From Sedimentibacter saalensis (GTDB taxonomy: Bacteria > Bacillota > Clostridia > Tissierellales > Sedimentibacteraceae): a DNA stretch of 64,000 bases. Position numbers and translations under genes: made by a program. The stretch spans positions 1 to 64,000 of the forward strand of contig NZ_VLKH01000013.1 of assembly GCF_007830175.1 (NCBI RefSeq). The letters are read 5' to 3'. Under the pieces are notes generated by a model, which made no database searches, was not told the origin of the DNA, and saw nothing but the letters and a program-made list of their open reading frames with translations. Shown here piece after piece: positions 45,760-59,601 of the stretch. The first letter of the stretch is position 1. Each line of letters starts with the position of its first letter.

Positions 45760-46504
45760 ATACTTTATTATAGTTGACACTTAATAAAAATAATCCTTCC
45801 GGTGCTGCTGTTTGTCCCAGAAGGGCTCTTTCTTTTGATTCAAGGGCATTTTCTATACATGATATTTCCTTTAAACCCTTGCCCACATCAATGAGTGTTC
45901 CTGCTATTATTCTCACCATGTTGTACAAAAATCCGCTTCCTGTTACATAAAGCCTGATGAGATTTCCTTCCTTTTCAATTCTTGTGCTGTAGACTGTCCT
46001 GACAGTTGTCTTTGCCTGTGAACCGGCTGCCATAAATGCTCTGAAATCATGAGTACCCACAACCAGCTTAAAAGCTTCCTCCATTTTGCCCATATCAAGT
46101 ATTGATGGAACAAATGTTGAGTAGTTTCTGTAAAACGGATTGCCTACCCTGCTGTTGTATATCTGATACATGTACGTCTTGTCGTGAGCATCAAAGCGCG
46201 AATTAAATTCCAACGGAACATCAACACTATCAAGAATGCTTATGTCATGAGGCAAATTTGCATTTAGGGCAATTTTAATTTTTTGCTCTTCTATTCTTGT
46301 GTCAGCCTTGAAGTTTGCTACTTGCCCAAGGGCATGAACTCCGCTGTCAGTTCTTCCGGAGCCAGTAAGTTCAATTTTTTGCTTCATTACCCTGGCTGCA
46401 GCATTTTCTATAACTTCCTGGATACCGATGCCGTTTGTCTGTGTCTGCCATCCGTTGTAGTTTGTGCCGTCATAGGCAACAGTTAATTTAATGTTTCTTA
46501 CCAT
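45755..46504 (-). CDS. truA: tRNA pseudouridine synthase A
   Basis: A 249-residue enzyme making pseudouridine at positions 38-40 of tRNA anticodon arms. The catalytic Asp lies in GSGRTDSGVHALGQVANF. Overlaps ecfT by 7 bp, in the usual Firmicute order. Confidence 0.97.
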   Translation of the reverse strand: MVRNIKLTVAYDGTNYNGWQTQTNGIGIQEVIENAAARVMKQKIELTGSGRTDSGVHALGQVANFKADTRIEEQKIKIALNANLPHDISILDSVDVPLEFNSRFDAHDKTYMYQIYNSRVGNPFYRNYSTFVPSILDMGKMEEAFKLVVGTHDFRAFMAAGSQAKTTVRTVYSTRIEKEGNLIRLYVTGSGFLYNMVRIIAGTLIDVGKGLKEISCIENALESKERALLGQTAAPEGLFLLSVNYNKVL

Positions 46505-47295
46505 ATTTTCAATGCGATTACAGCTGCAAAATAAACAATAAAAATAAATGATGCAGCATAATCTCCCTTAGATATTTTAAGCTGTCTCATGCGTGTTCTG
46601 TTTTCTCCGCCTCTGTAACATCTTGCTTCCATTGCCATTGCCAGTTCATCAGCTCTTCTGAATGCACTTATAAACAGCGGCACCAAAAGAGGCACCAGGT
46701 TTTTTGCCCTGCTCATAATGTTTCCGCTTTCAAAATCCGCTCCTCTTGATTTCTGAGCCTTCATTATTTTTTCAGTTTCCTCCATGAGTGTTGGAATGAA
46801 ACGAAGTGCTATTGTCATCATCATTGCAAGTTCATGAGCCGGAAGTCCGAACCTTTTAAATGGCTTTAAGAGGCTTTCTATACCATCTGTCAGAATTATT
46901 GGCGATGTTGTAAGCGTAAGAAGCGATGTTCCCATTATCAAAAGTGTAAGTCTTATGGCCATGAAACCCGCTTGTTTCAAACCTTCCTCTGTTATCTTGA
47001 TAAATCCTGCCTGGAAAATTATTCTTCCCGGTGTCATTAGAAGGTTAATAACAAATGTTATGATTATAATCATGAGTATGGGTCTTAAGCCCTTAATTAC
47101 AAACTTTACAGGAACTTTCGATATTGTAATGGCTGCTGTGAGAAACACCACAACTATTAAATATGTTGAAAAACTGTCAATCAGAAACAATGAAACCAAA
47201 AATGCCAGAGTGATTATTATCTTAACCCTGGGATCGAGATTGTGAACAGGTGATTCGACAGGATAATGCTGTCCTATGGTTAAATTCTTAAACAT
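46498..47295 (-). CDS. ecfT: EcfT, transmembrane subunit of ECF transporter
   Basis: A 265-residue membrane protein with about five spans. Coupling motifs KSRGADFES and EARCYRGGENRTRMR carry the Ala/Ser-Arg-Gly signatures that touch the two ATPases. It serves several vitamin S-components, presumably including QueT. Overlaps ecfA2 by 8 bp. Confidence 0.95.
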   Translation of the reverse strand: MFKNLTIGQHYPVESPVHNLDPRVKIIITLAFLVSLFLIDSFSTYLIVVVFLTAAITISKVPVKFVIKGLRPILMIIIITFVINLLMTPGRIIFQAGFIKITEEGLKQAGFMAIRLTLLIMGTSLLTLTTSPIILTDGIESLLKPFKRFGLPAHELAMMMTIALRFIPTLMEETEKIMKAQKSRGADFESGNIMSRAKNLVPLLVPLFISAFRRADELAMAMEARCYRGGENRTRMRQLKISKGDYAASFIFIVYFAAVIALKIW

Positions 47296-48148
47296 AATTC
47301 CTCCTCACTTCCTTGAGTATTTCTTCCTTGGCTTCTTCAACAGTGAGTATATCAGGCCTTATGTTAAATCCTCGTTTTCTGAGTTCATTGACTATTTCTG
47401 CTACCTGAGGAACTCCAAGTCCGATTTTTTTAAGTTCTTCAGACTGGGAATAAATTTCCTTTGGTGTTCCCTGCATGTGTATTTTGCCCTTGTAAAGTAC
47501 TATTACTCTGTTTACAAGCTTGGCAATGTCTTCCATGCTGTGAGAAACAAGTACAACCGTCACATTTGCTTTTTTGTGAAGTTTCTTTATCTGTTCGAAA
47601 ATTTCATTTCTTCCTGCAGGATCAAGCCCTGCAGTAGGTTCATCAAGAATGAGGTAATCAGGTTTCATTGCAAGAACACCTGCAATGGCAACTCTTCTTT
47701 TTTGTCCTCCGGAAAGGTCAAACGGTGATTCATCCTTTATGCTTTTATAGTTAAACCCTACAAGCTCCAGTGCTTCTTTGACTCTCTTTTCTGTTTCTTC
47801 TTCGGAAAGGTTTAAGTTCATTGGACCAAAGGCAACATCCTTCGCAACAGTTTCTTCAAATAGCTGATATTCCGGATACTGAAAAACCAAACCCACAGTC
47901 TGGCGTATTTTGCTTAATTTTTTCTTGTCTTCCCCAACAACTGTGTCATTGACAATTATTTTTCCGTCAGATGGTTTTTCCAGACCGTTTAAAAGCTGAA
48001 TCAGCGTGGATTTTCCGGAACCGGTGTGTCCTATTACTCCCAGAAAGTCCCCTTCTTTTATTTCCAGATTTATATCATCAAGAGCAACAGTCCTGAAAGG
48101 TGTTCCTTCGCTGTAAATGTATTTTATGTTTTCTGCTTTTATTGACAT
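47288..48148 (-). CDS. ecfA2: EcfA2, ATPase of ECF transporter
   Basis: A 286-residue ABC ATPase: Walker [10 protein letters not shown], signature LSGGQKRR, Walker [14 protein letters not shown], and the C-terminal EcfA extension with [18 protein letters not shown]. Overlaps ecfA1 by 10 bp. Confidence 0.95.
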
Positions 48149-48969
48149 AACAAATCCACCAAATCCTTTACGTTTATTATATCAGGTGGTATATTAAGAC
48201 CTTCCTTGGCAAGTTCCTGTGCAAGCTCAGTTACTTGTGGAACATCAAGTCCAAATTTTTTTATAGCTTCAATATTTTTAAAAACGTCTTTAGGAGTACC
48301 ATCCAATTTTATATTTCCCTTGTCCATAATAACAACCCTGTCTGCAAGAACGGCCTCATCCATGTAATGAGTTATGAGAAGTATTGTCTTACCCTGGGTA
48401 TCCAGTTTTTTCAGTGTGTCCATAACTTCTTTCCTGCCTGAAGGGTCAAGCATTGCTGTTGGCTCATCCAGTATTATGCAGTCAGAATTAAGAGCAAGAA
48501 CACCTGCTATGGCAATTCTCTGCTTTTGTCCTCCAGATAAAAGATGTGGTGGTCTTTTTCTGTATTCATACATTCCAACAGCATTCAAGGCATCATCCAC
48601 CCTTCTTCTTATTTCAGAAGACTCAACCCCTTGATTTTCAGGTCCAAATGCAATGTCTTCCTCAACTATTGTTGCAACAAGCTGATTGTCAGGATTCTGA
48701 AAAACCATTCCTGCTGCCTGTCTTATGTCCCAGAGCTTGGAATCATCTGCTGTGTCCATTCCCTTTACATAAATTTTTCCTTCTGTAGGAAGAAGTATGG
48801 AATTTATTAATTTTGCCAGAGTTGACTTGCCTGAACCGTTGTGACCGATTATAGCAGTGAACTCGCCTTTTTTGATATTCAGACTGCAGCCGTCAACGGC
48901 GTAGTCCGTATCTTCCTTGCTGTATTTAAACTTGACATTTTCAATTTTAATTATGTAATCGTCCATCAT
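48139..48969 (-). CDS. ecfA1: EcfA1, ATPase of ECF transporter
   Basis: About 276 residues, paralogue of EcfA2: [39 protein letters not shown] and the tail [18 protein letters not shown]. Two adjacent ATG codons (48969, 48966) follow CAGGTG; I use the first. In most Firmicutes this gene directly follows rplQ; here a 7.5 kb cluster stands between. It has its own promoter. Confidence 0.95.
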
Positions 48970-49010
48970 ACACCTGTATTCATTTAAATTGTGCGTCACT
49001 TCGCATTAAG

Positions 49011-49039
49011 ATAATATCATCAATCACATAATTTTACAA
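49011..49039 (-). promoter_or_regulatory. ecfA1 promoter
   Basis: Minus-strand TTGTAA (49034-49039), 17 bp spacer, TATTAT (49011-49016), preceded by TGA. It would start the ecfA1-ecfA2-ecfT-truA unit independently of the upstream cluster. Confidence 0.6.
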
Positions 49040-49098
49040 CAGTAATTTTAATCATGTTGTTGAAACTCAACGTAAATTTGTTTGAAATTTAAGGAAAT

Positions 49099-50157
49099 CT
49101 AAAGCAATCCGCATTCAATGCGTCTTGGCCTTGCAGGGTCAAAATTAAATTCATCTTTGAAATCGGCACAGTAAATTTTGCTTTTGAAATTGATTGTCCT
49201 GATTTTTTTATACAGTTTGTCTGCAGGATCATCATCACATATTCCAATGACGAACATTTTATATTTTTTTCTCATGGACTGGGCAATTTGATTTATAAAT
49301 AAGTTGTAGTATTCCATGTTTCCGTCTTTTGAATAAAAAAAAGAAAGCATGGGAAAATCAAGTTCTTTTCCTTCCTCCGGAATATCAATGTACCCAAGAA
49401 GATTTGTAACAAATGAAAATTTCTGTATTGTTTTTAATGTTCTTGAATACCCCTTGACTATGTACTGCTTAAATCCTTTTTGGTTCCACAGCGCTCCGAA
49501 TGCCAGTATTTCTCCTCTTTTTTCCAGGACGTAACAATCATCAATATTAAGTCCGTAAAAATCTGTAATATTGTTTATGGCCGTTGAAAAATTATATTTC
49601 ATCATTTCTCTTTTTAAAAATTCATGGACATATTCAAGATCATCACTTTTTATACTCCTGAATGTTAAGCCTTCCGGACACACTTTCGTAAATATTTTGG
49701 GATTGATTATGTAAGTTGTATAGTCGCAAAGAGGTATGAGCTCTGGAAAAAAGCTTCTTTTTTTATAAAACATTTTTTCTGCTGCTTCATTGTCAGACAA
49801 AAATGAACAAAGATAAAGACCTAAATCCTGCTTTTCAAAAAAATCAGCCACATTTTTCCAGTTTATTACTCCATTATAATCATTTCTTTTTCTTATTCCC
49901 CCTACATATCCTGCAAGTACACTTTTTCCGTCAACATGGTAACTACCGGGAACACAGGCTGCCTGAAAAACTATTTTTCCTTTTTTGTCCCTTATGATGG
50001 CAATCTTTGAATCTTTGCTCTCTTTTTTATAGGATTCAAATGCATTTGTCCTCCTGGTATAAATAAGTTCAATATTACCCTTAGATGCTTCTGATTCAAT
50101 TATTTCAAGCATTTCAACGCCGTCTTCTAGACAGGCTTCTTCAATTTTATTTATCAT
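49099..50157 (-). CDS. GNAT-like N-acetyltransferase, end of the radical SAM cluster
   Basis: A 352-residue protein that looks like two tandem GNAT-type halves (about 1-160 and 160-350), with weak acetyl-CoA loops (GYVGGIRKRNDYNG; YVLEKRGEILAFGALWNQ). I cannot name a close relative. It starts inside the end of the upstream radical SAM gene (11 bp overlap, site GAGGT), so it is translated with it. It may acetylate the product of the radical SAM enzymes or a carrier; this is inferred only from the operon. The last of six genes. Confidence 0.7.
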   Translation of the reverse strand: MINKIEEACLEDGVEMLEIIESEASKGNIELIYTRRTNAFESYKKESKDSKIAIIRDKKGKIVFQAACVPGSYHVDGKSVLAGYVGGIRKRNDYNGVINWKNVADFFEKQDLGLYLCSFLSDNEAAEKMFYKKRSFFPELIPLCDYTTYIINPKIFTKVCPEGLTFRSIKSDDLEYVHEFLKREMMKYNFSTAINNITDFYGLNIDDCYVLEKRGEILAFGALWNQKGFKQYIVKGYSRTLKTIQKFSFVTNLLGYIDIPEEGKELDFPMLSFFYSKDGNMEYYNLFINQIAQSMRKKYKMFVIGICDDDPADKLYKKIRTINFKSKIYCADFKDEFNFDPARPRRIECGLL

Positions 50158-51496
50158 TAATTACCTCATCCATGTTTTCTCCTATGGGAATACCAAAGCG
50201 CTTGTCCACTTCAAAATGAAAAAGAATGTTCTGATACCAGTATACCATGTTTATGAGAGGTTTTTTTGTGCGCCTTAAAAGAGTGATTCCCCTTTTTAAT
50301 ATGGAGAAGAATGTATAGTATTTTTTCTTGTACTTCCTGCAGAGATTTTTAAGCTCAAAATCAGAAACAAGCTTCGGCATAAATGAGATTGTACCGAATG
50401 TGTATCCTTTTTCCAGCCACCAGCTTTCATGAAACAGTCTTCCTTCCTCCAGAAATCGTTCATATGTCTCTGTTCCCGGAAAAGCCAAAAGATGATTGAA
50501 CGCAGTTACAAAAAACTCATGACGGCTGCAAAATTCAAGATTTTTTATAAAGCTTTCCTCGTTGTCATAGTCAAAACCAAATACAAAACTGGCATAAATG
50601 CTTATGCCGCATTTGTGAATTCTTTCAACTAGCTCGTCCCTCTCGCCAAGTCGGGCTGACCATGACTTGTTCATCTGCTCCAGGTTTTTCGGATCAATTG
50701 ATTCAAATCCTATCAATATCATTTCACATCCGCTTTTTTTCATTAAATTAAGAATTTCTTCATCACGGGCAATGTCTAGAGTGATCTGGGTTACCCATAT
50801 GATATTCAGCTTTTCTACTTCTTTAAAAAGCTCTTTTGCAAATTCCCTGTCAGAAAAAATGCTGTCATCAACAAAAAAGTAAATTTTATTGCGGCACATT
50901 TTAATTTCTTCCACTATGTCACTTATTTTTCTGTGCATATACTGTCCGCTGTAATATGAATGGATGGAACAAAATTCACACAGATGGCGGCACCCTCTTC
51001 CTATTTCAACCAGTGTAATTGGAAGATACTTCTTTTGCTTATCAACATAAATACTTCTATCTGGAAGACCATAGTCAATGTTCGCTTTACCTTCATAAAC
51101 TTTTTTGAAACTTTTATTTTCAATATCTAAGAGCACTCCTGCCCACACTTCTTCAGCATTTCCCTTGACAACTATGTCGGCGTGCTTAATAACTTCATGT
51201 TCTGCCAATGTTGCATGGTATCCTCCCATTACAACTATTTTACCTCTTTGTTTAAACTTTTCTGCTATTTCATAGGCTCTTCTGGCTGTGTATGCTTCAA
51301 CTGTTATTGCCACAACATCTGTTTCACAGCCATAGTCAATGTTTTCAATACGGTCGTCAAAAAAATTTCTTTGGTACCTTTCAGGAGTGAGCTTGTTTAA
51401 TACTGCAATGGTCAATGGTTCCATGAGCCAGGATTTTAAATATTTTTCATTTTTCTTCCTGCCTATTCCAGGCAAAATAAATGTTATTTTCATCAT
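50147..51496 (-). CDS. B12-type radical SAM protein, cluster paralogue 1
   Basis: A 449-residue enzyme. N-terminal cobalamin-domain-like Rossmann fold (1-~135) with VVMGGYHATLAEHE, then the radical SAM core GCRHLCEFC (Cys169, Cys173, Cys176), then a ~100-residue C-terminal part rich in aromatic and basic residues. The classic cobalamin motif DxHxxG is not seen. Overlaps paralogue 2 by 4 bp (ATGA) and the acetyltransferase gene by 11 bp. Related families methylate unreactive carbons or cyclise; the substrate is unknown. Confidence 0.85.
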   Translation of the reverse strand: MMKITFILPGIGRKKNEKYLKSWLMEPLTIAVLNKLTPERYQRNFFDDRIENIDYGCETDVVAITVEAYTARRAYEIAEKFKQRGKIVVMGGYHATLAEHEVIKHADIVVKGNAEEVWAGVLLDIENKSFKKVYEGKANIDYGLPDRSIYVDKQKKYLPITLVEIGRGCRHLCEFCSIHSYYSGQYMHRKISDIVEEIKMCRNKIYFFVDDSIFSDREFAKELFKEVEKLNIIWVTQITLDIARDEEILNLMKKSGCEMILIGFESIDPKNLEQMNKSWSARLGERDELVERIHKCGISIYASFVFGFDYDNEESFIKNLEFCSRHEFFVTAFNHLLAFPGTETYERFLEEGRLFHESWWLEKGYTFGTISFMPKLVSDFELKNLCRKYKKKYYTFFSILKRGITLLRRTKKPLINMVYWYQNILFHFEVDKRFGIPIGENMDEVINDK

Positions 51497-52836
51497 TGTC
51501 CGTCCTTAAATCCAAATTTCATTCCTTGTTTTCTGAAAACTTCTTTTTTGAATATGGGGTTATAAACCATGTATGTTAAAAGCTTGTACGGATTTCGCAT
51601 GTTTGTTTTAAAGTCAAATGCCCTGTAAATTATGGAACTCATAGAATTGTAATTTTTTCTGCACCCAAAAGACACTTCTGTAAGCTCAATAGCCGACATG
51701 TTCTTTGGAACAAATGACGCGTAATTGAACCTGTAGTCAGGATGAAGCCACCACTTCTTTTCGTAAAGAAGCCTTCCTTCACGTGAAAGCTCATCGTAAA
51801 GAGGAGTTCCGGGATATGGCATCAAAATGTTGTATGCAGCAAAAGAAAATTTATTTTTAAGGGCAAAATTATATGTTTCTTTGATTGAATCCAGTGTATC
51901 TGTGTCGTGGCCAAGAGTGAACGCAGCCCATATCTGCAGTCCGTAGGATTTAAGCATACGAATTGCTTCCTTGTAATGATTGTCTGCATAACTTTTGTTT
52001 ATTCCCTTTTTCATTGCTTCTATGCTTTCAGACATTATCGATTCAAACCCAACAACAAGTCCCATACAGCCGCTTTTGACCATAATGTCCATAAGTTCTT
52101 TATCTTCAAGCATGTCAAGGCTCGCCTGACTAACCCATTTTATTTTTAGAGGTATGAGAGCACGAAATAGTTCCTTGGCTTTTTCCTTGTTGCCTACAAT
52201 GTTGTCGTCAACAAAGAACAACACTTTCCTTTCCTGGCTTTTAATTTCTTCAATTACTTCAGAGACATCCCTGCAGTAATGGTGGTGTCTGAAGTATGCC
52301 CCTGAAGCACAAAAGCTGCACGAATTTCTGCATCCCCTGCTAAACTGCAAAAGTGTAATGGGAAGATAGTTTTTTCCCTTGAAAATGTCCCTTCTTGTGA
52401 TTATTCCTTTTTGAGGAACAATAACTTCACTGCACACATATTCTTCCTTTAAACATCCATTACGCAGATCCTCTGTCATTTCCAGCCATTTGTCTTCTGC
52501 ATCTCCAATCATAATGCTTGTTGCATGTTCCTTAACTTCACCGGGAAGAAGCATGGCATGCATTCCCCCCATGAGTACTTTGACTCCCATGTCCATGAAC
52601 TGCCGGCTTATTTCATAGGCTCTTCTTGCAGTGAATGTTTCAACTGTTATGCATACAAGGTCCGTTTTTTCATCATAGGGAATCACTTCAGCCCTGTCGT
52701 CATACATTACAACTTCTATGTCAGATGGTGTAAGTGCTGCAAGTATTCCAAGCTGCAGAGGCTCCATCCTGCTTTCATCCACATACAGGCTGTGACCTCT
52801 TCTTCCTATGTTTGGTTTAATCAGCGTAATTTTCAT
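51493..52836 (-). CDS. B12-type radical SAM protein, cluster paralogue 2
   Basis: A 447-residue paralogue with the same layout: VLMGGMHAMLLPGEV, the cluster motif GCRNSCSFC (Cys169, Cys173, Cys176), and FYDD/YDDRAE-type residues in the Rossmann part. The start is the ATG followed by KITLIKPNIG (GGTGACAGAG upstream); it overlaps paralogue 3 by 20 bp. Cysteine positions are identical to paralogue 1, supporting a duplication. Confidence 0.85.
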   Translation of the reverse strand: MKITLIKPNIGRRGHSLYVDESRMEPLQLGILAALTPSDIEVVMYDDRAEVIPYDEKTDLVCITVETFTARRAYEISRQFMDMGVKVLMGGMHAMLLPGEVKEHATSIMIGDAEDKWLEMTEDLRNGCLKEEYVCSEVIVPQKGIITRRDIFKGKNYLPITLLQFSRGCRNSCSFCASGAYFRHHHYCRDVSEVIEEIKSQERKVLFFVDDNIVGNKEKAKELFRALIPLKIKWVSQASLDMLEDKELMDIMVKSGCMGLVVGFESIMSESIEAMKKGINKSYADNHYKEAIRMLKSYGLQIWAAFTLGHDTDTLDSIKETYNFALKNKFSFAAYNILMPYPGTPLYDELSREGRLLYEKKWWLHPDYRFNYASFVPKNMSAIELTEVSFGCRKNYNSMSSIIYRAFDFKTNMRNPYKLLTYMVYNPIFKKEVFRKQGMKFGFKDGQ

Positions 52837-54121
52837 CTCTGTCACCAAGTTTCCTTCCCTGCTTGAACATTATTTCAAATCTGGATACTAGATTGGTAAT
52901 CAAGTAGACATGCACATTTTTTAAATTGCTTCGACTCATCATTCTTTTAAAAATATTTCCCAAGGAATAAAATGAATATCTTGCATCTCTGCAACTTTCT
53001 TTTAGCTGCCGGACAGTCATATTTTCAGGAACAATCATTGAATCTCCGTACCTGAAATTATTTTCAAGCCACCACTTATCTATAACAAGTTTGTTTTCCC
53101 ACTTAAGTCTCTCATAGAGGGCAGTACCCGGCATTGCCATTAGGGGATTGAAGTTTGCAATTGCAAATTTATGATGTACTGTAAAATCCACTATTTCCTG
53201 TGCAGAATTCACAGTGTCTTCCCCATAGCCTATTACAAATGTGCCGTAAACCATGAGTCCTGCATCGTAAATATTTTTCAGGACTTTTTCATAGTCAAGT
53301 TTCATATTTGCCTTCTTGTTCATCTTTTTCAGGTTTTCTTTATTTAAAGATTCAAAACCAATGAGAACCATCATGCAGCCGCTTTGTTTCATGATTTTCA
53401 AAATTTCAGCGTTTTCTGCAATGTCCATCGATATCTGGCATGCCCATTTCTTTCGGAGTTTTTTCATGAGCAAGAATAGTTTTACAGCTTTTTCCCTGTC
53501 TGCAAAAATGTTGTCATCAACAAAGAAAATATATTTTTCCTTTATTTTTTTAATGTCGGCTACAACATTCTCAACGTTTCTAGTTCTAACACTGCCTTTA
53601 TAGAAAGCATTTATAGAACAGAAATCACAGCAATACCTGCATCCCCGTCCAAACTGCACCAATGCAATGTTGTTATAATATTTTCCGTTAAAAACAGTGT
53701 AGTCGTATTTCACTTGGGATAAATCTGAACTGTTATTGCTAATATACTTTTTCTTTAAGGAGTTGTTCTTTAGGTCTTCTACAATCATAGTCCATGTGTC
53801 TTCTGCTTCTCCCACAACAACTGCATCTGCATATTGAAGGCATTCATCAGGAACCATGGTAGGGTGAAATCCTCCCATGATTACAATTTTATTTTCTTTT
53901 TTGTACTTTTGTGCAAGAAAATAAGCCCTTCGGGCAGAAAATGTGTCCACAGTCATGGCCACAACTTCAGCATCAAGATTTTCCGGCAATTTTTCTATTT
54001 TTTCATCATAAAATTCTATTGGTGCTTTTGTAAGAGGCTTTATTATTGCAAAAACAAGGGGCATCATTGCATCCCTTGACTTTTTCCCGAACATGCCGGG
54101 TCTTATAAATGCTATTTTCAT
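52817..54121 (-). CDS. B12-type radical SAM protein, cluster paralogue 3
   Basis: A 434-residue paralogue: IVIMGGFHPTMVPDE, motif GCRYCCDFC (Cys161, Cys165, Cys168). The sequences between motifs are clearly homologous to paralogues 1 and 2 (TVDTFSARRAY, VFFVDDNIFADREKA). It lacks a few residues in the first 30 compared with the others. It lies 9 bp after paralogue 4. Confidence 0.85.
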   Translation of the reverse strand: MKIAFIRPGMFGKKSRDAMMPLVFAIIKPLTKAPIEFYDEKIEKLPENLDAEVVAMTVDTFSARRAYFLAQKYKKENKIVIMGGFHPTMVPDECLQYADAVVVGEAEDTWTMIVEDLKNNSLKKKYISNNSSDLSQVKYDYTVFNGKYYNNIALVQFGRGCRYCCDFCSINAFYKGSVRTRNVENVVADIKKIKEKYIFFVDDNIFADREKAVKLFLLMKKLRKKWACQISMDIAENAEILKIMKQSGCMMVLIGFESLNKENLKKMNKKANMKLDYEKVLKNIYDAGLMVYGTFVIGYGEDTVNSAQEIVDFTVHHKFAIANFNPLMAMPGTALYERLKWENKLVIDKWWLENNFRYGDSMIVPENMTVRQLKESCRDARYSFYSLGNIFKRMMSRSNLKNVHVYLITNLVSRFEIMFKQGRKLGDRDENYAD

Positions 54122-54130
54122 ATTGCTCCT

Positions 54131-55474
54131 TTAGTCGGGTATATCGGAATTGTCAGCCATAACTGTCTTGCCGTACGCTTCAAAAGATTCAGCATATTTT
54201 TTATATCCAAAATTCAGGCCGAAATAAATGCCATATAAAATATTGATTTTCCATAAATTTTTTATGTCTATTCGCTTTATTATGTTCTTAACTGAATAAG
54301 CATCCTTCCATGCTAATTTGATTCCTTCTTCAAGTTCATTTACAGTCATATTTTTTGGTCTGTAAACAACATGCTCCACATCGTACATGGACCAGTCCGT
54401 TTCAATTATTCTTTGTTCTCTTTCAAGCTGCCTGTAGTAATCTGTTCCAGGAAATGGAGTAATAACGGAAAACCTTGGCAAATCTATTTTTGCTTCCAGG
54501 CACAAATTTACAGTTCTTAAAAATACGTCTATTTCATCATCGTCGCTTCCAAAGGCAAAGCATCCCATTACCATTATGCCGTGAGAGTGCAATTTATCCA
54601 TGAGAAGCTGGTATTCATAAACTTTGTTGACGCCTTTTCTCATGCTTTTCTGGGTTTCCTGATTTACAGATTCAAATCCTATGAGGAGTCCCTTGCAGCC
54701 GCTTTTTTCAAACAGCTCAATGAGTTCATGGTCAGCTCCTATTGCTGAAGTTGTCAGACCGAACCACCACTTTTTAAGGGGTATCATTTCCCTGAAAAGT
54801 TCCTTTGCAAAAGAAGTGTCTGCTATTAAATTAACATCCGGAAAAACAACAATCCTGCCCTTGAGAGTTTTTATTTCATCTATGATATTTTGTACTGTCC
54901 TCTTGTAGAGCTTACTTCCAAAAGCCTTAGGATAGGCGCAGAATGTGCAGTTTAAGTTGCATCCACGTATTGCCTCTACAGTGTTGAGTGTAATGTACTT
55001 ATCTTCTTTTAAAAGGTCTTTGCGGGGTAGAGGACGGTTTTCAACAGTGGTGTTTTCTCCTTGAAAATACAGTCTCTGCATGCAATCATCCCGGAAATCT
55101 TTTAATGCTCTCGGAAAATTGTTTTCTCCCAGTCCCACAACAACTGAATCAGCATGCTCCATTGCTTCATAGGGTTTAAGTGAAGGATGAACTCCCCCCA
55201 AAATTACCTTTATGCCTCTTTTTCTGAAATAATCGGCATACCTGTAGCACCTTGAAGCAGTTCCTGTAATGCAGGTAATTCCCACAATATCAGCATCAAT
55301 ATCAAGAGGGATTTTTTCAGCTGTTTCATCATATATTTTTACATCAGCACCCAGTTCTTCAGGAACAAGTGCTGCAAGTAGAGCCAGGGTTATGGGCGCA
55401 TAGTGAAGATTTTTATGAAACATGCCGTTGTAGCGGTGCATTGCACCAGCTGGAGCTAACAGTGCTATTTTCAT
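54131..55474 (-). CDS. B12-type radical SAM protein, cluster paralogue 4
   Basis: A 447-residue protein, the most divergent of the four: VILGGVHPSLKPYEA, motif GCNLNCTFC (Cys172, Cys176, Cys179) followed by AYPKAFGSKLYKRT. It has FPDVNLIADTSFAKELF where the others read FFVDDNIxxxxxxA. First of the four to be translated, 18 bp after the permease gene. Divergence suggests a different step or substrate. Confidence 0.85.
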   Translation of the reverse strand: MKIALLAPAGAMHRYNGMFHKNLHYAPITLALLAALVPEELGADVKIYDETAEKIPLDIDADIVGITCITGTASRCYRYADYFRKRGIKVILGGVHPSLKPYEAMEHADSVVVGLGENNFPRALKDFRDDCMQRLYFQGENTTVENRPLPRKDLLKEDKYITLNTVEAIRGCNLNCTFCAYPKAFGSKLYKRTVQNIIDEIKTLKGRIVVFPDVNLIADTSFAKELFREMIPLKKWWFGLTTSAIGADHELIELFEKSGCKGLLIGFESVNQETQKSMRKGVNKVYEYQLLMDKLHSHGIMVMGCFAFGSDDDEIDVFLRTVNLCLEAKIDLPRFSVITPFPGTDYYRQLEREQRIIETDWSMYDVEHVVYRPKNMTVNELEEGIKLAWKDAYSVKNIIKRIDIKNLWKINILYGIYFGLNFGYKKYAESFEAYGKTVMADNSDIPD

Positions 55475-55492
55475 TTTATCCTTCCTTTGATT

Positions 55493-56632
55493 TTAGTTTA
55501 TAAACGAAGAAGCTGCCATTAATATATATGATGCCAACACTATGCTCAGCAATATCTTGTTTTTTCCCAGATTTCCAAGCATAAGATTTCCATTTGAATG
55601 TTCTGTGGCTTTTATGTAACCGGGTATGACAAGCAGTGACGTTATGACTGCTACTATGCCCCCAACCACCTGAATCATTGCTATGAAACTTATGGGAAGA
55701 AACAGTGCCGTCAAAAGAGAAGGAACCGTGGCCCCCATGAAGGCAGTCTTTCTTTTCACTTTAATTTCAGTGCATATTATGTCAATCTGAGCCAGGGCTA
55801 TGGACAAATATGAAGTGAACATTGCCAAAGCAACAAACAAAGCACACACTACATTTGTCATATTTCCTAAGGAGCTGCTAAGCCCTATGGTGGCAACCTG
55901 AGTTACAGTATCTGAAGCTTTTATTGCAGAAAATGTAAAAAAGAGAGTTATGGCTGCATTAATTGCAATCCCTGCTATTATTGCAGTCTTTAACTTGTTT
56001 TTATTTTCAATGTTGTTTGCAGCCTGAGGAATGGAAAACAATGCAGAAAATGAAAACATCACCAGACCATACAATGCAAGTGCTCCCCTATAGCTTCCAA
56101 ATGTAAGTTCTATATTCCTTACAGGATGGTCTAATGACTTGACAGTCAAAAACATTACCACACCACCAATTATAATCATGGAATACTTTTCACTGACACC
56201 TATTATTTTTATTCCTGCAACAACTATTAAAGAACTGATGCCGTAAAATATTATTTTTGAAACGGACGGAGCTATACCAAAAGTTTCAGTAAAAACTTCA
56301 GCAGCAACCAAAATGTATATTGCAAGATTAAATAGAAGCACCACTGCAAGCACTGCAAAAAACAAAGACGAATACAAATTTTCATTTTTTCCCTTAAACA
56401 AGTGCTCTTTAAAAATTCCCATGAGCTGCGTAGAATTTTTAGAGTTCAAAACAAGATCTGCAACAAGCAGATGCATGAGTGCACTTGCAACAAATGCAGC
56501 AGCAACAGCTGTAATAATTCCAAACAGGCCTGTCCTTGAAGCAGCGTAGGGAATGGCAAGAATTCCGGTTCCAAGACCGCTTCCTGCAATGAGCATTGCT
56601 GCTTCCCACGCAGATATTTTTTTACTCTTCAT
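55493..56632 (-). CDS. Aromatic amino acid permease (HAAAP family, Mtr/TnaB/TyrP-like)
   Basis: A 379-residue transporter with 11 predicted spans. N-terminal signature LIAGSGLGTGILAIPYAASRTG is typical of tryptophan/tyrosine permeases. The start is the ATG followed by KSKKISAWEA, after AGGAG; a longer reading adds a non-helical stretch. First gene of the cluster, so the pathway probably takes in an aromatic amino acid or a relative, an inference from position. Confidence 0.82.
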   Translation of the reverse strand: MKSKKISAWEAAMLIAGSGLGTGILAIPYAASRTGLFGIITAVAAAFVASALMHLLVADLVLNSKNSTQLMGIFKEHLFKGKNENLYSSLFFAVLAVVLLFNLAIYILVAAEVFTETFGIAPSVSKIIFYGISSLIVVAGIKIIGVSEKYSMIIIGGVVMFLTVKSLDHPVRNIELTFGSYRGALALYGLVMFSFSALFSIPQAANNIENKNKLKTAIIAGIAINAAITLFFTFSAIKASDTVTQVATIGLSSSLGNMTNVVCALFVALAMFTSYLSIALAQIDIICTEIKVKRKTAFMGATVPSLLTALFLPISFIAMIQVVGGIVAVITSLLVIPGYIKATEHSNGNLMLGNLGKNKILLSIVLASYILMAASSFIN

Positions 56633-56757
56633 AAGTTCTCCTAAACACAATGTTAACGTTATTTTACCCAATAAGAGTATGTTGAAACAAGCTTTATAAA
56701 CATGAATTTCAAATTTCTATAACATAAAGGTAAATAATTTGTCGGAATTTGCGCATA

Positions 56758-56789
56758 CTAAAATCCCGCAGGTATGCACCTGCGGGATT
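56758..56789 (-). terminator. Terminator of the alpha ribosomal operon
   Basis: AATCCCGCAGGT-GCAT-ACCTGCGGGATT, followed on the minus strand by TTAG. Strong GC stem just after rplQ; it separates the ribosomal operon from the radical SAM cluster. Confidence 0.8.
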
Positions 56790-56813
56790 AAGTCAACTAT
56801 ATTGCTAATTGAA

Positions 56814-57155
56814 TTATACTAATTCAATTATTGCCATTTCTGCTCCATCGCCTCTGCGTGGTCCCAATTTTAGAATTCTAGTGTATCCACCGTTTCTATC
56901 CTTGTATTTAGGAGCAACTTCTTCAAATAGCTTACTTACTGCATTTTTATCATATAAATAAGCTGCTGCTTGACGTCTTGCATGTAGATCTCCTCTTTTA
57001 CCAAGAGTAATAGTTCTTTCTGCAACTCTTCTTAATTCTTTGGCTCTAGTTACTGTTGTAACCATTCTGCCATTGTTAATTAAGTCAGCAGTCATGTTTC
57101 TTAACATTGCTACTCTGTGGTCAGACTTGATACCAAGCTTTCTGTGACTACCCAT
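56814..57155 (-). CDS. rplQ: Ribosomal protein L17
   Basis: A 113-residue L17: [18 protein letters not shown] and the C-terminal [17 protein letters not shown]. Last gene of the alpha operon, 20 bp after rpoA. Confidence 0.98.
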
Positions 57156-57175
57156 GCTTAGTCCTCCTTTTACTG

Positions 57176-58123
57176 CTAATTATCATTTTTCCTTAAAGAT
57201 AAACCCAACTCTTCAAGTTTCTTCGCTACTTCATCCAAAGATTTCTTTCCGAGGTTTCTAACTTTCATCATGTCATCTTCTGACTTGTATGTAAGTTCCT
57301 CTACAGTATTGATTCCTGCTCTCTTCAGACAGTTGTAGGATCTTACTGATAAATCAAGTTCCTCTATTGTCATTTCCAAAACTTTTTCTTTTTCATCTTC
57401 TTCTTTTTCAATCATTATTTCAACATCGTTAATATGTTCTGTCAATGATATGAACAAGTTGAGATGTTCGTTCAATATTTTTGCTCCTAAAGAAACTGCT
57501 TCTTCAGGTTCAATTGTTCCGTTAGTCCAAATCTCGATTGTCAATTTGTCAAAATCTGTTCTGTTTCCAACTCTGGTGTCTTCCACTGAGAAGTTTACTT
57601 TTTTAACAGGAGTGTAGATTGAATCAATTGGGATAACGCCGATTGACTGGCTATCCTTCTTGTTTCTTTCAGCTATTACATATCCTCTTCCTTGTTCCAT
57701 TTCCATCTCAATAATGAGTTCGGAACCTTCTTCAAGAGTTGCAATATGCAAATCTTCGTTGATTATATCAACGTCGCCTCCTGTTATAATATCTGCTGCT
57801 GTAACCTCTTTAGGGCCCTTTGCGTCTATTAAAAGCTGCACAGGTCCGGGCACGTTCATTTTCGCAGCCAGATTCTTAATATTAAGAATTATCTCTGTTA
57901 CATCTTCTCTTACTCCAGGTATTGTAGAAAATTCATGCAATACACCTTGGATGTTGATAGATGTAACAGCAGCTCCTGGTAACGATGAAAGTAGTATTCT
58001 TCTGAGTGAATTTCCAAGTGTTGTTCCGTAACCTCTTTCAAGTGGTTCAACAACTATCTTCCCATATGAGTTATCATCATTCTTTTCAATTAACGTAATA
58101 TTAGGTTTTTCTATTTCTATCAT
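57176..58123 (-). CDS. rpoA: RNA polymerase alpha subunit
   Basis: A 315-residue alpha subunit. The NTD (about 1-228) holds the dimer/assembly region ([25 protein letters not shown]). A linker with an acidic EEDEKEK stretch follows, then the CTD with helix-hairpin-helix [14 protein letters not shown] and [12 protein letters not shown]. Length is normal. Confidence 0.98.
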
Positions 58124-58176
58124 CCCAACCCTCCTTAGATGTGATGTATGTCGAGGGTAATAATTCTTAATTCTTA

Positions 58177-58800
58177 CTACTTAGAGTACAACTCGACAAT
58201 CAGATGCTCTTCTATTGGTATTTCAATATCTTCTTTCGCAGGTTCAGCTATTATTCTGCCTGTGAAGTTTTCAGGTTCAACTTGCAGCCATTGTGGTGCA
58301 GTCTTCTTGTGATTTTCAACTAAAGCTTTGAACTTATCAGAGCTTTGGCTCTTTTCCTTAACCTTTATTACATCGCCAACTGAAAGAGTCATTGATGGAA
58401 TATCAGCCTTCTTACCGTTTACTGTAAAATGACCGTGAACTACCAATTGTCTTGCTTCTGGTCTTGAACTTGCAAAGCCTAATCTGTATATTACATTGTC
58501 AAATCTAAGCTCCATCAATTTCAATAAGTTATCACCAGTTTTTCCAGACATTTTATCTGCAACTTTAAAAGCTTCAGCAAATTGTCCTTCCAAAACTCCG
58601 TAATACTTTCTAACTTTTTGTTTTTCTCTCAACTGAATACCGTAGTTAGTCAGTTTCTTGTTGTTTTGACCGTGCTGTCCAGGAGCATAGTTTCTTCTTC
58701 CTATAGAACACTTGTCAGTGTAACATCTGTCACCTTTTAAATATAACTTTAATCCTTCTCTTCTGCATATTCTGCAAACAGGTCCAGTATATCTTGCCAT
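58177..58800 (-). CDS. rpsD: Ribosomal protein S4, zinc-binding form
   Basis: A 207-residue S4 with the C+ zinc knuckle CRICRREG...CYTDKC in the first 32 residues and the S4 domain [22 protein letters not shown] (in pieces). The 53 bp to rpoA contains AT-rich TTCTTAATTCTTA arms. Confidence 0.97.
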
Positions 58801-58819
58801 CTTTTCACCTCGTTTCTAA

Positions 58820-59218
58820 TTATACTCTTCTACGTTTTGGTGGTCTGCAACCATTATGTGGTATTGGAGTAACGTCTTTTATTAAATTAACTTCCAGTCC
58901 AGCTGCCTGCAAAGATCTTATTGCTGCTTCTCTGCCTGAGCCCGGTCCTTTAACGTACACTTCTACTGTCTTCAAACCATGTTCCATAGCTCTTTTTGCT
59001 GCTTCTTCTGCAACCATGCTAGCTGCATATGGAGTAGATTTTCTTGAACCCTTGAATCCCAATTGTCCTGAACTAGCCCAAGAAAGTGCGTTTCCCTGCA
59101 AGTCAGTAAGAGTTACAAGTGTATTGTTAAAAGTTGACTTAATATGTGCCTGGCCTTTTTCAATATTTTTACGTTCTCTTTTTCTTACTCTTGTTTTTTG
59201 TTGTTTTTTAGCTGCCAC
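58820..59218 (-). CDS. rpsK: Ribosomal protein S11
   Basis: A 132-residue S11: [35 protein letters not shown] and the C-terminal [13 protein letters not shown]. Confidence 0.98.
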
Positions 59219-59232
59219 TTAAGTCCCTCCTT

Positions 59233-59601
59233 TTATTTTTTAGATTTTTTCCCTGAAACTCTCTTAGGACCTTTTCTAGTTCTAGCATTGTTCTTAGTGT
59301 TTTGTCCTCTGACAGGCAATCCTTTTTTATGTCTTAAGCCTCTGTAGCAGTTGATTTCTTTTAATCTCTTAATATTCAACGCTATTTCTCTTCTCAAGTC
59401 ACCTTCAACAGGATGCTTATCTATTTCAGTTCTTAACTGTTGTATTTCATCTTCAGTCAGGTCTTTAACTCTTGTGTCAGGGTTAATACCTGTGTCTTTT
59501 AATATCTGGTTTGAAGTCTTTCTGCCTATACCATAGATATATGTCAGACCGATTTCAACTCTTTTTTCTCTTGGTAAATCCACACCAGCGATTCTGGCCA
59601 T
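59233..59601 (-). CDS. rpsM: Ribosomal protein S13
   Basis: A 122-residue S13: [23 protein letters not shown] (in pieces) and the conserved [18 protein letters not shown] tail. Confidence 0.98.

Follow-up and report, generated by a model that had tools for sequence, protein, structure and literature searches.

A recurrent cluster of radical SAM enzymes and a tandem-GNAT acyltransferase in Clostridia as a candidate pathway for N-acylated, radical-modified amino acids or amino lipids

INTRODUCTION

In a 64,000-nucleotide stretch of the Sedimentibacter saalensis genome (here called the window; contig NZ_VLKH01000013.1, positions 1 to 64,000), six genes, including four for homologous radical SAM proteins, lie between rplQ and ecfA1. 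Did these genes arrive as a unit, and what do they make together? An initial annotation proposed that they were inserted together and form one pathway, perhaps acting on an aromatic amino acid and ending with an acetylation. On the basis of the comparisons presented here, we give roughly even chances to the reading that the six genes travel horizontally as a single biosynthetic unit, whose product would be an amino acid or amino lipid that is N-acylated and radical modified.

RESULTS

Six ORFs (P, A, B, C, D, and N) are arranged head to tail on the minus strand and are bounded upstream by rplQ (56814..57155, minus strand) and downstream by ecfA1 (48139..48969, minus strand), in agreement with the annotated series of a permease, four radical SAM genes, and a GNAT-like gene. 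The first gene, P (55493..56632; ATG at 56632), encodes a Trp_Tyr_perm (HAAAP-like) permease of 379 aa. It is followed by A (54131..55474; 447 aa; Cys172, Cys176, and Cys179) and B (52817..54121; 434 aa; Cys161, Cys165, and Cys168), which encode B12-binding radical SAM proteins, and by two further radical SAM genes, C (51493..52836; 447 aa; ATG start) and D (50147..51496; 449 aa), whose products both carry the cysteines at positions 169, 173, and 176. The final gene, N (49099..50157; 352 aa), encodes a predicted tandem-GNAT acyltransferase. The successive intergenic gaps from P to N are 18, 9, -20, -4, and -11 bp, as expected from the annotated spacing (i.e., within 18 bp or overlapping), and every cysteine position originally given coincides with a CX3CX2C site.

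The regulatory elements proposed for the flanks fared less well. The hairpin 3' of rplQ (56758..56789, minus strand) is readable in the sequence but is missing from the list of the terminator scan, while the promoter-like site ahead of ecfA1 (49011..49039, minus strand) is listed by the promoter scan but belongs to a class of sites that are no more frequent here than expected by chance (29 sites versus 26.1 in shuffled sequences; SD, 5.0). A search of positions 46000-59500 against Rfam yielded a single match, to a snoRNA model (E = 0.35), and we rejected riboswitch control on this result. The GC part of the composition check suggested in the initial annotation gave no foreign mark; the GC contents of the six genes (0.33 to 0.40) bracket the window mean (0.367), and we rejected a foreign origin as an inference from composition.

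We located rplQ in 21 of 25 genomes of the same genus. The cluster lies between rplQ and ecfA1 in two of the 21 (G000 and G003), and the interval is empty (i.e., contains no intervening ORF of at least 90 aa) in four (G014, G016, G017, and G023). A whole or partial agr-like cassette is present at the rplQ site in 12 genomes, with ecfA1 next in 9; the other 3 cases are broken by a contig end, including G012, in which the regulator alone is visible. The remaining three genomes (G024, G002, and G009) have other or unclear content at the site. In a third carrier, G022, N adjoins ecfA1 on a short contig, and the cluster is found at a different location in G023 and in the Sedimentibacter MAG L011. 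Since the cluster is absent from this site in many relatives, its presence here is not a trait of all close relatives. Both the variable occupancy among the 21 genomes and the same gene order in other Clostridia (i.e., P-A-[B-C]/[E]-D-N, in which E is a fifth radical enzyme) support insertion as a unit. Some neighborhoods may be misassembled, since MAGs are the source of many loci and the genome of the window has a listed contamination of 6.49%.

We examined 59 loci, 40 of which are uncut; these represent 39 distinct clusters once L133, the same contig as L045 under another handle, is dropped. The sweep that produced L010 to L086 started from A and took the best 80 of 89 matching stretches, and it is therefore not a random sample and cannot reveal clusters without A. 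The uncut loci comprise P-A-B-C-D-N (15 loci; 14 distinct), P-A-E-D-N (8 loci), P-A-D-N (6 loci), P-A-E-B-C-D-N (4 loci), P-A-B-C-E-D-N (1 locus), forms with a GH3 gene (4 loci), A-N (1 locus), and A-B-C-D-N (1 locus). The cultured Butyrivibrio sp. NC2007 (L041) carries the P-A-E-B-C-D-N form. P is the first gene in 33 of the 39 distinct clusters and is missing from the other 6, and N is the final gene with two exceptions (L137 and L175). In 40/40 uncut loci, B and C occur as a pair or not at all. P and GH3 never occur together (34 loci with P, 4 with GH3, and 2 with neither, namely, L050 and L052, the former also without D). On the cut contig L047, A lies beside a C-like gene without B; a quick early tree with long branches does not group that gene with C. 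Acetoanaerobium L184 carries a solitary A-like gene (34% identical). These gene contents show that A, D, and N are the core and that the B-C pair and E are optional additional enzymes, with either the permease or a gn2-GH3 gene pair usually as the partner. The order and partners shared across genomes likewise support the one-pathway proposal.

A to D all exceed the Pfam cutoff for Radical_SAM, and their mutual identities are 30 to 38%. For the B12-binding domain, A and B exceed the Pfam cutoff, while the matches of C (E = 4.5e-4) and of D (E = 1.9e-6) fall short of it. Among homologs longer than 400 aa, the CX3CX2C motif is kept in 147/147 and GGxH in 140/147. This conservation, together with dN/dS values of 0.08 to 0.18 against UBA6113 homologs (the range across all six genes), suggests that A to D are working enzymes. 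The dN/dS values and the recurrence of the gene order across genomes also mark the cluster as more than a chance arrangement. In a midpoint-rooted tree of 74 chosen rows, including four outgroup rows trimmed to at most their last 480 aa, each of the families A, B, C, D, and E has a clade of its own (support, 94/91 [just below the tool's star], 100/99, 100/100, 97/93, and 100/99, respectively). Each clade contains Bacillota and Citrobacter members, and a Chloroflexota member is present in clades A to D but not E. The several radical steps that had been proposed for the four paralogues would fit such separate orthogroups. An alternative in which the four enzymes are functionally unrelated and adjacent through duplication only might draw on their homology, but it is very improbable, given that each belongs to an old orthogroup with the same partners across phyla.

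The structural model of D (pLDDT, 85; pTM, 0.87) has AprD4 as its nearest fold (E = 2.8e-18; TM, 0.71), followed by other cobalamin radical SAM enzymes (MgmA, TsrM, CysS, TokK, and OxsB). D shares with them the CX3CX2C core and a putative B12-binding-type N-terminal part, but it is only 13 to 16% identical to them, and the cluster differs in combining two to five orthogroups. MiaB, which to our knowledge is not a cobalamin enzyme, aligns as well. AprD4 is a dehydratase and not a methylase, a point that we counted against our best explanation. The D proteins of at least 425 aa (34 of 35) were retained as set A3. PADLOC returned low-scoring matches of A to D to the phage defense candidate PDC-M51A (best for B; E = 5e-11; 40 bits) and, for A, to pVip (E = 4e-4), with no match for P or N; we read these as general radical SAM likeness and set aside a defense function on these low scores.

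The model of N (pLDDT, 91; pTM, 0.89) resembles N-myristoyltransferases most closely in the PDB (E = 1.4e-13; TM, about 0.6), with tandem GNATs within the top 50 matches, from which we judge that N contains two GNAT domains in tandem. Its Pfam match is below the cutoff, and by eye it lacks what we take to be the customary acetyl-CoA loop motif. The protein ends in E-C-G-L-L; the last residue is Leu in 39/39 N proteins and Glu is at position -5 in 38/39, while the commonest last residue in the other five families reaches at most 24/35. Set A1 retained the N proteins of 340 to 385 aa (37 of 39); the N frame of L135 stops early (301 aa). Two reports (PMC12219266; PMC4964394) describe the C terminus of N-myristoyltransferase as reaching into the active site and serving as a base, and note that bacteria also have folds of this type. 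N shares the predicted tandem fold with the double-GNAT acyltransferases covered there (PMC12219266), and its conserved terminal Leu would fit the comparison, but its identity to them is about 12%. The model thus changes the proposed final acetylation to a predicted acylation by a tandem GNAT with a fold nearest N-myristoyltransferases.

Relatives without P, one of them a Chloroflexota genome, mostly carry a predicted GH3 amide synthetase and the gn2 protein, which occupy the place of the permease in seven clusters (L049, L135, L137, L170, L171, L175, and L183). All three GH3 domains (N-terminal, central, and C-terminal) exceed the Pfam cutoffs in L135, L137, and L183. Simple patterns for the GH3 nucleotide motifs matched motif II in 7/7, motif III in 4/7, and motif I (with plant spacing) in 0/7; the shortfall in motifs I and III counts against our best explanation, and the matches are not taken as proof of activity. 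In NCBIfam, the cluster GH3 scores best against the lyso-ornithine lipid synthetase OlsH (E = 9e-15 and 3e-20), with 54.2 (L049) and 72.1 (L175) bits against a cutoff of 620 bits; since these scores are far below the curated cutoff, the GH3 substrate is not necessarily a fatty acid. N-acyl ornithine is given as the OlsH product in PMC12493201, in the text of which the word "radical" is absent.

A search for GH3 in the genome of the window gave no match. Nine other GH3 loci of the phylum (L159, L160, L161, L164, L165, L167, L168, L169, and L172; L162, L163, and L166 were outside this comparison) are only 25 to 28% like the cluster GH3, were rejected as its counterparts, and have no nearby radical SAM gene of the cluster kind, nor does such a gene adjoin a Burkholderia GH3 (L185). 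The gn2 protein, found only in G461 among 151 Chloroflexota genomes, gave no Pfam, NCBIfam, or PDB match, and a profile comparison with N (probability, 6%) led us to reject it as a GNAT. On a mobilizable Citrobacter plasmid (L183), the order is gn2-GH3-A-D-N-B-C-PAP2, with E and a fatty acid desaturase gene on the opposite strand; no match to this cluster DNA was detected in 5,426 E. coli genomes (near mode).

DISCUSSION

Taken together, the forms of the cluster agree best with a product of the amino acid or amino lipid class that is N-acylated and modified by radical chemistry. The next candidate, which is unlikely but is the strongest of the alternatives, is a small secreted signal or antibiotic derived from an aromatic amino acid: P would import tryptophan or tyrosine, A to D would methylate it serially, as TsrM does on tryptophan, and N would acetylate it. 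P matches Pfam Trp_Tyr_perm over nearly its full length (E = 1.3e-10; 41.4 bits versus a cutoff of 22 bits), a domain that it shares with the HAAAP aromatic amino acid permeases; TsrM is among the fold neighbors of D and weakly matches A in sequence (E = 2.3e-4), and some tandem GNATs near N in fold are presumably of the Eis-like kind. The aromatic substrate originally suggested is weakly supported by the domain match, but P scores only 34.2 bits against the 350 bits needed for the NCBIfam aromatic transporter family araaP and, in uncut loci that carry it, heads an enzyme cluster. Moreover, a simple tryptophan importer does not account for GH3/gn2 standing in its place, and no tailoring or export gene recurs beside the cluster: among ORFs of at least 70 aa, the most widespread other family, that of ABC ATPases, reaches 11 of 48 neighborhoods.

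A membrane lipid pathway is a still less probable reading. Here the radical enzymes would cyclize, methylate, or couple fatty-acyl chains, as proposed for ladderane and hopanoid enzymes, and GH3 and N would add an amino acid head group. The desaturase and PAP2 genes of the Citrobacter form and the OlsH-like GH3 agree with this, as do the best NCBIfam scores of the radical enzymes (i.e., rSAM_ladder_B12 for B, tied with PhpK at E = 1.9e-27, and HpnJ for A, C, and D). However, A to D reach only 86 to 99 bits against cutoffs of 360 to 578 for the ladderane and hopanoid families and of 360 to 600 for the named families as a whole (HpnJ, BchE, PhpK, ladderane, and others), none of which was passed (for A, B, and C, among the best 25 matches listed), and the desaturase and PAP2 genes were met beside one cluster only. 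We also rejected identity with Mss, the membrane-spanning lipid synthase of Bacillota, which has a Tes-like architecture that differs from the set of enzymes in the cluster (PMC13274423; PMC11868695); the available part of PMC13274423 mentions neither cobalamin nor B12. Peptides are C-methylated by B12 radical SAM enzymes, but a ribosomal peptide substrate is highly improbable, because the overlapping or abutting genes of the window's cluster leave no room for a precursor gene and no neighbor is conserved among ORFs of at least 70 aa.

For the N-acylated amino acid or amino lipid, the following route can be envisaged. P would move an amino acid or amino acid derivative across the membrane, and A, D, B, and C would use cobalamin and SAM to alter the scaffold by radical chemistry at separate sites. 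Methylation is said to be the commonest reaction of the class (PMC11659888), which would make C-methylation the most probable individual reaction; ring or C-C bond chemistry is possible instead. N would then acylate the amine from acyl-CoA, with the C-terminal carboxylate of its own Leu352 serving as general base in the manner of N-myristoyltransferase. The GH3 of relatives would use ATP to convert a free acid to an amide, and the gene content (two to five radical enzymes) would set the degree of decoration. More tentatively, and with less confidence than in the general reading, we suggest a cross-phylum, plasmid-borne pathway whose N-acylated amino acid or amino lipid structures are written in the gene content: A and D would make the core change, B-C and E would contribute extra radical modifications, each at a set position, and the NMT-like N would act last through its C-terminal carboxylate, while gut and digester Clostridia may have traded GH3/gn2 for the permease, changing from making one part to importing (or exporting) it.

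Our search of the literature for this combination of genes returned no described pathway that matches. The kinds of enzyme are known, apart from gn2, and it is the combination that appears to be new. Radical enzymes here have an acyltransferase of NMT-like type and a GH3 resembling OlsH as neighbors, in anaerobes and on a plasmid of Enterobacteriaceae. The natural variants with two, three, four, or five radical enzymes and a common core constitute a ready series for assigning steps. Comparing the products of carriers of A+D, A+E+D, A+B+C+D, and A+E+B+C+D would assign each B12 radical enzyme to its step.

The window's six genes

The six ORFs found on the minus strand at 49099-56632 bear out the layout proposed in the initial annotation, and the Cys positions and intergenic gaps computed here match those that it gave. 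The first gene (P) encodes a permease (Pfam Trp_Tyr_perm; E = 1.3e-10). The four middle genes (A, B, C, and D) encode B12-type radical SAM paralogues that share 30 to 38% pairwise identity; all four match Radical_SAM (E = 4e-15 to 1e-18), while the B12-binding match lies over the Pfam cut-off in A and B and under it in C and D. The last gene (N) encodes a GNAT-like acyltransferase with a single sub-threshold Pfam match (Acetyltransf_9; E = 0.009). None of the four radical SAM proteins reached the cut-off of a named NCBIfam family in its list. A sister genome (UBA6113; L010) carries all six genes at the same site, and because the dN/dS values against it are low throughout (P, 0.18; A, 0.08; B, 0.13; C, 0.10; D, 0.10; N, 0.18), all six appear to be maintained by selection. 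Promoter-like sites around the cluster are at the chance level of shuffled sequences and terminator-like sites little over it (7 versus 4.5; sd, 2.0), so it is from gene spacing that we infer one transcript for the six genes.

A variable slot beside the ribosomal operon

In its own genome (G000; 3.83 Mb in 23 contigs; completeness, 99.22%; contamination, 6.49%), the cluster adjoins the ribosomal operon. N was present in four of the 61 genomes searched (G000, G003, G022, and G023), all of the same genus. The site comparison rests on the 21 of 25 genus genomes in which rplQ was located, and among these the claim that the cluster was inserted between rplQ and ecfA1 holds: the interval contains the cluster in two (G000 and G003), is empty (no ORF of ≥90 aa) in four (G014, G016, G017, and G023), and contains a cassette in 12. 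In nine of the latter (G005, G008, G010, G011, G013, G015, G018, G019, and G021), a three-gene cassette is followed by ecfA1; in three (G001, G007, and G012), it is whole or partial at a contig end, with only its regulator visible in G012 (L113). We take the cassette genes to encode a LytTR-type regulator, a sensor kinase, and an AgrB-like protein (i.e., an agr-like set). All or part of this agr-like cassette occurs at L108-L112, L113, L114, L116-L118, L122, and L126 (12 of 21 genomes); its AgrB has only distant matches (24 to 28%) in G000, G003, and G022. The slot content is different or unclear in G002 and G009, and G024 presumably has a transposase-like gene and a deacetylase-like one there.

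N adjoins ecfA1 in G022. In G023, B-C-D-N lies on a different contig from the empty slot and is broken within B, and in a Sedimentibacter MAG (L011), P-A-B runs up to a contig end amid other genes; a presumed kynureninase-like gene (L011:5925-7214) lies a few genes ahead. On sequence comparison, the differing slot contents and the location of the cluster elsewhere in G023 and L011 indicate that rplQ-ecfA1 is a variable slot accepting different cassettes and that the cluster has moved. The slot looks like a cassette-swapping site.

Composition and gene order of the module

We scanned the species-genome collection with A as the starting protein and retained the best 80 of the 89 stretches that matched, which gave 77 loci. 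Of these, 48 (L010-L057) carry the Clostridia-type module, whole or partial, including L048, from an Actinomycetota bin, and L054, from a Lentisphaerota bin, in which A stands alone on a 3.2-kb contig. By called ORFs, the permease family and the N family each occur in 39 of the 48, and no further family recurs in more than 11 of these neighborhoods. The other 29 loci (L058-L086) carry distant A-like genes (30 to 38% identical), single or paired, and a search of them at E = 1e-8 found no further module proteins. One, from a Candidatus Anammoxibacter MAG (L058:9893-12747), has two tandem A-like genes (38% to A) without other module genes.

We assigned orthogroups at 59 loci, including an optional fifth radical SAM group (E), and counted gene orders in the 40 loci unbroken by contig ends. 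The order P-A-B-C-D-N was found in 15 (one of them a duplicate, L133 and L045 being a single contig), P-A-E-D-N in eight, P-A-D-N in six, P-A-E-B-C-D-N in four, and P-A-B-C-E-D-N in one. The remaining orders occur once each: gn2-GH3-A-B-C-E-D-N (L049), gn2-GH3-A-D-N (L135), A-D-N-gn2-GH3 (L137), B-C-D'-N-gn2-GH3 (L175, with its A upstream on the same contig, L177), A-N (L050), and A-B-C-D-N (L052, without a permease upstream). In each of the 40, B and C are either both present or both missing; L047, whose contig is cut, may be an exception. The cluster is a conserved operon-like unit of separate orthogroups with intact Cys motifs, and GH3 or a permease serve as alternative partners.

The GH3/gn2 form and its history

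Seven permease-less clusters (L049, L135, L137, L170, L171, L175, and L183) carry GH3 and gn2. GH3 matches Pfam in L135, L137, and L183, the remainder being assigned by likeness to these; gn2 (~236 aa) lies outside known families. N (E ≤ 1e-20) was found in six of 398 phylum genomes (our own; G265, of the permease form; G170; G215; G293; and G370), and GH3 over the cut-off in 25, among them G170, G215, G293, and G370; GH3 had no match in G000 and G265 in this search. G215 and G370 each have the cluster on two contigs, treated separately, with D broken at the edge. One Anaerolineales contig (G461) carries A, B, C, a class V PLP enzyme, D', N, gn2, and GH3; other small ORFs lie among them. The enzyme between C and D' of the Chloroflexota cluster (L175:4422-5609) is SufS/EgtE-like. 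Immediately ahead of E-gn2-GH3-A in G215 lies the gene for an additional, SPASM-domain-containing radical SAM protein (L171:269-1540), and immediately ahead of the G170 cluster are what we take to be lysine fermentation-like genes (L137:777-7106). At L135:11022-11927, the N frame stops at 301 aa, short of the conserved C terminus, through either a premature stop or a misassembly.

A plasmid of Citrobacter portucalensis from a gull (NZ_CP134684.1; IncFIB/IncFII, typed as mobilizable) carries the GH3 form with every one of the five radical SAM orthogroups (L183:11361-23456). The genes run gn2, GH3, A, D, N, B, C, a PAP2 phosphatase, and an unknown gene, followed on the opposite strand by E and a fatty-acid desaturase. 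It was the sole match to its own N (E = 1e-8) among 72,556 plasmid records, and E. coli genomes gave no near matches to the cluster.

In a midpoint-rooted tree of 74 chosen proteins, A to E form separate clades (support, 94/91 for A and at least 97/93 for the others), with Citrobacter copies inside all five and Chloroflexota copies inside all but E; D' is C-like by score and falls in the D clade. GH3-form members (G170, Citrobacter, and Chloroflexota) branch early in the A and D clades, permease forms are nested, and the window's sister amid permease forms is L049, itself of the GH3 form. This suggests GH3/gn2 as the older partner and more than one exchange of partners, within the limits of midpoint rooting and partly weak deepest forks (85/26 in A).

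Predicted structures of N and D

The model of N (ACYLTRANSFERASE) is confident (pLDDT, 91.1; pTM, 0.89). Its top PDB matches by Foldseek are eukaryotic N-myristoyltransferases (NMTs; E = 1.4e-13), whose tandem GNAT fold it is predicted to share (TM, ~0.6), and tandem or related GNATs (e.g., 7q3a, 2i00, and 3n7z) are within the first 50; sequence profiles found no PDB relatives at E = 0.1. The last residue of N is Leu in 39 of 39 proteins, with Glu at -5 in 38 of 39, while the commonest last residue of other cluster families reaches at most 24 of 35. Seven more N proteins with complete C termini (one, L133, a duplicate) all end in Leu, and the Citrobacter protein ends in EIALL. PMC4964394 describes the C-terminal carboxylate of NMT as the proposed base, and PMC12219266 describes NMT-type enzymes, with bacterial examples, as double GNATs whose C terminus reaches the active site. 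N may use its C-terminal carboxylate as is proposed for NMT.

The closest structural neighbors of the D model (pLDDT, 85.4; pTM, 0.87) are AprD4, MgmA, MtaB/MiaB, TsrM, CysS, TokK, and OxsB. Because these catalyze different reactions (e.g., AprD4 is a diol dehydratase and MgmA a glutamine methylase, both near D by fold), the predicted fold of D does not discriminate between methylation and other chemistry. The residue under cobalt varies among OxsB, TsrM, and TokK (PMC13331322).

Discussion

The kinds of components are already known, gn2 excepted. Searches of an open-access literature collection brought up no title or abstract describing the cluster, which is weak evidence of absence since subscription papers and bioRxiv preprints lie mostly outside that search. 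Three findings have an acyl/amide theme in common: the fold of N, the OlsH-like GH3, and the lipid genes beside the plasmid form. OlsH yields an N-acyl ornithine, according to PMC12493201. Against this theme, GH3 scores far under the cut-off for OlsH, lipid genes were seen beside a single cluster, and GH3 and lipid genes are both absent from the window's cluster. In the mechanism that we propose, P would transport an amino acid or a derivative, A, D, B, and C would carry out radical modification, and N would transfer an acyl group onto an amine.
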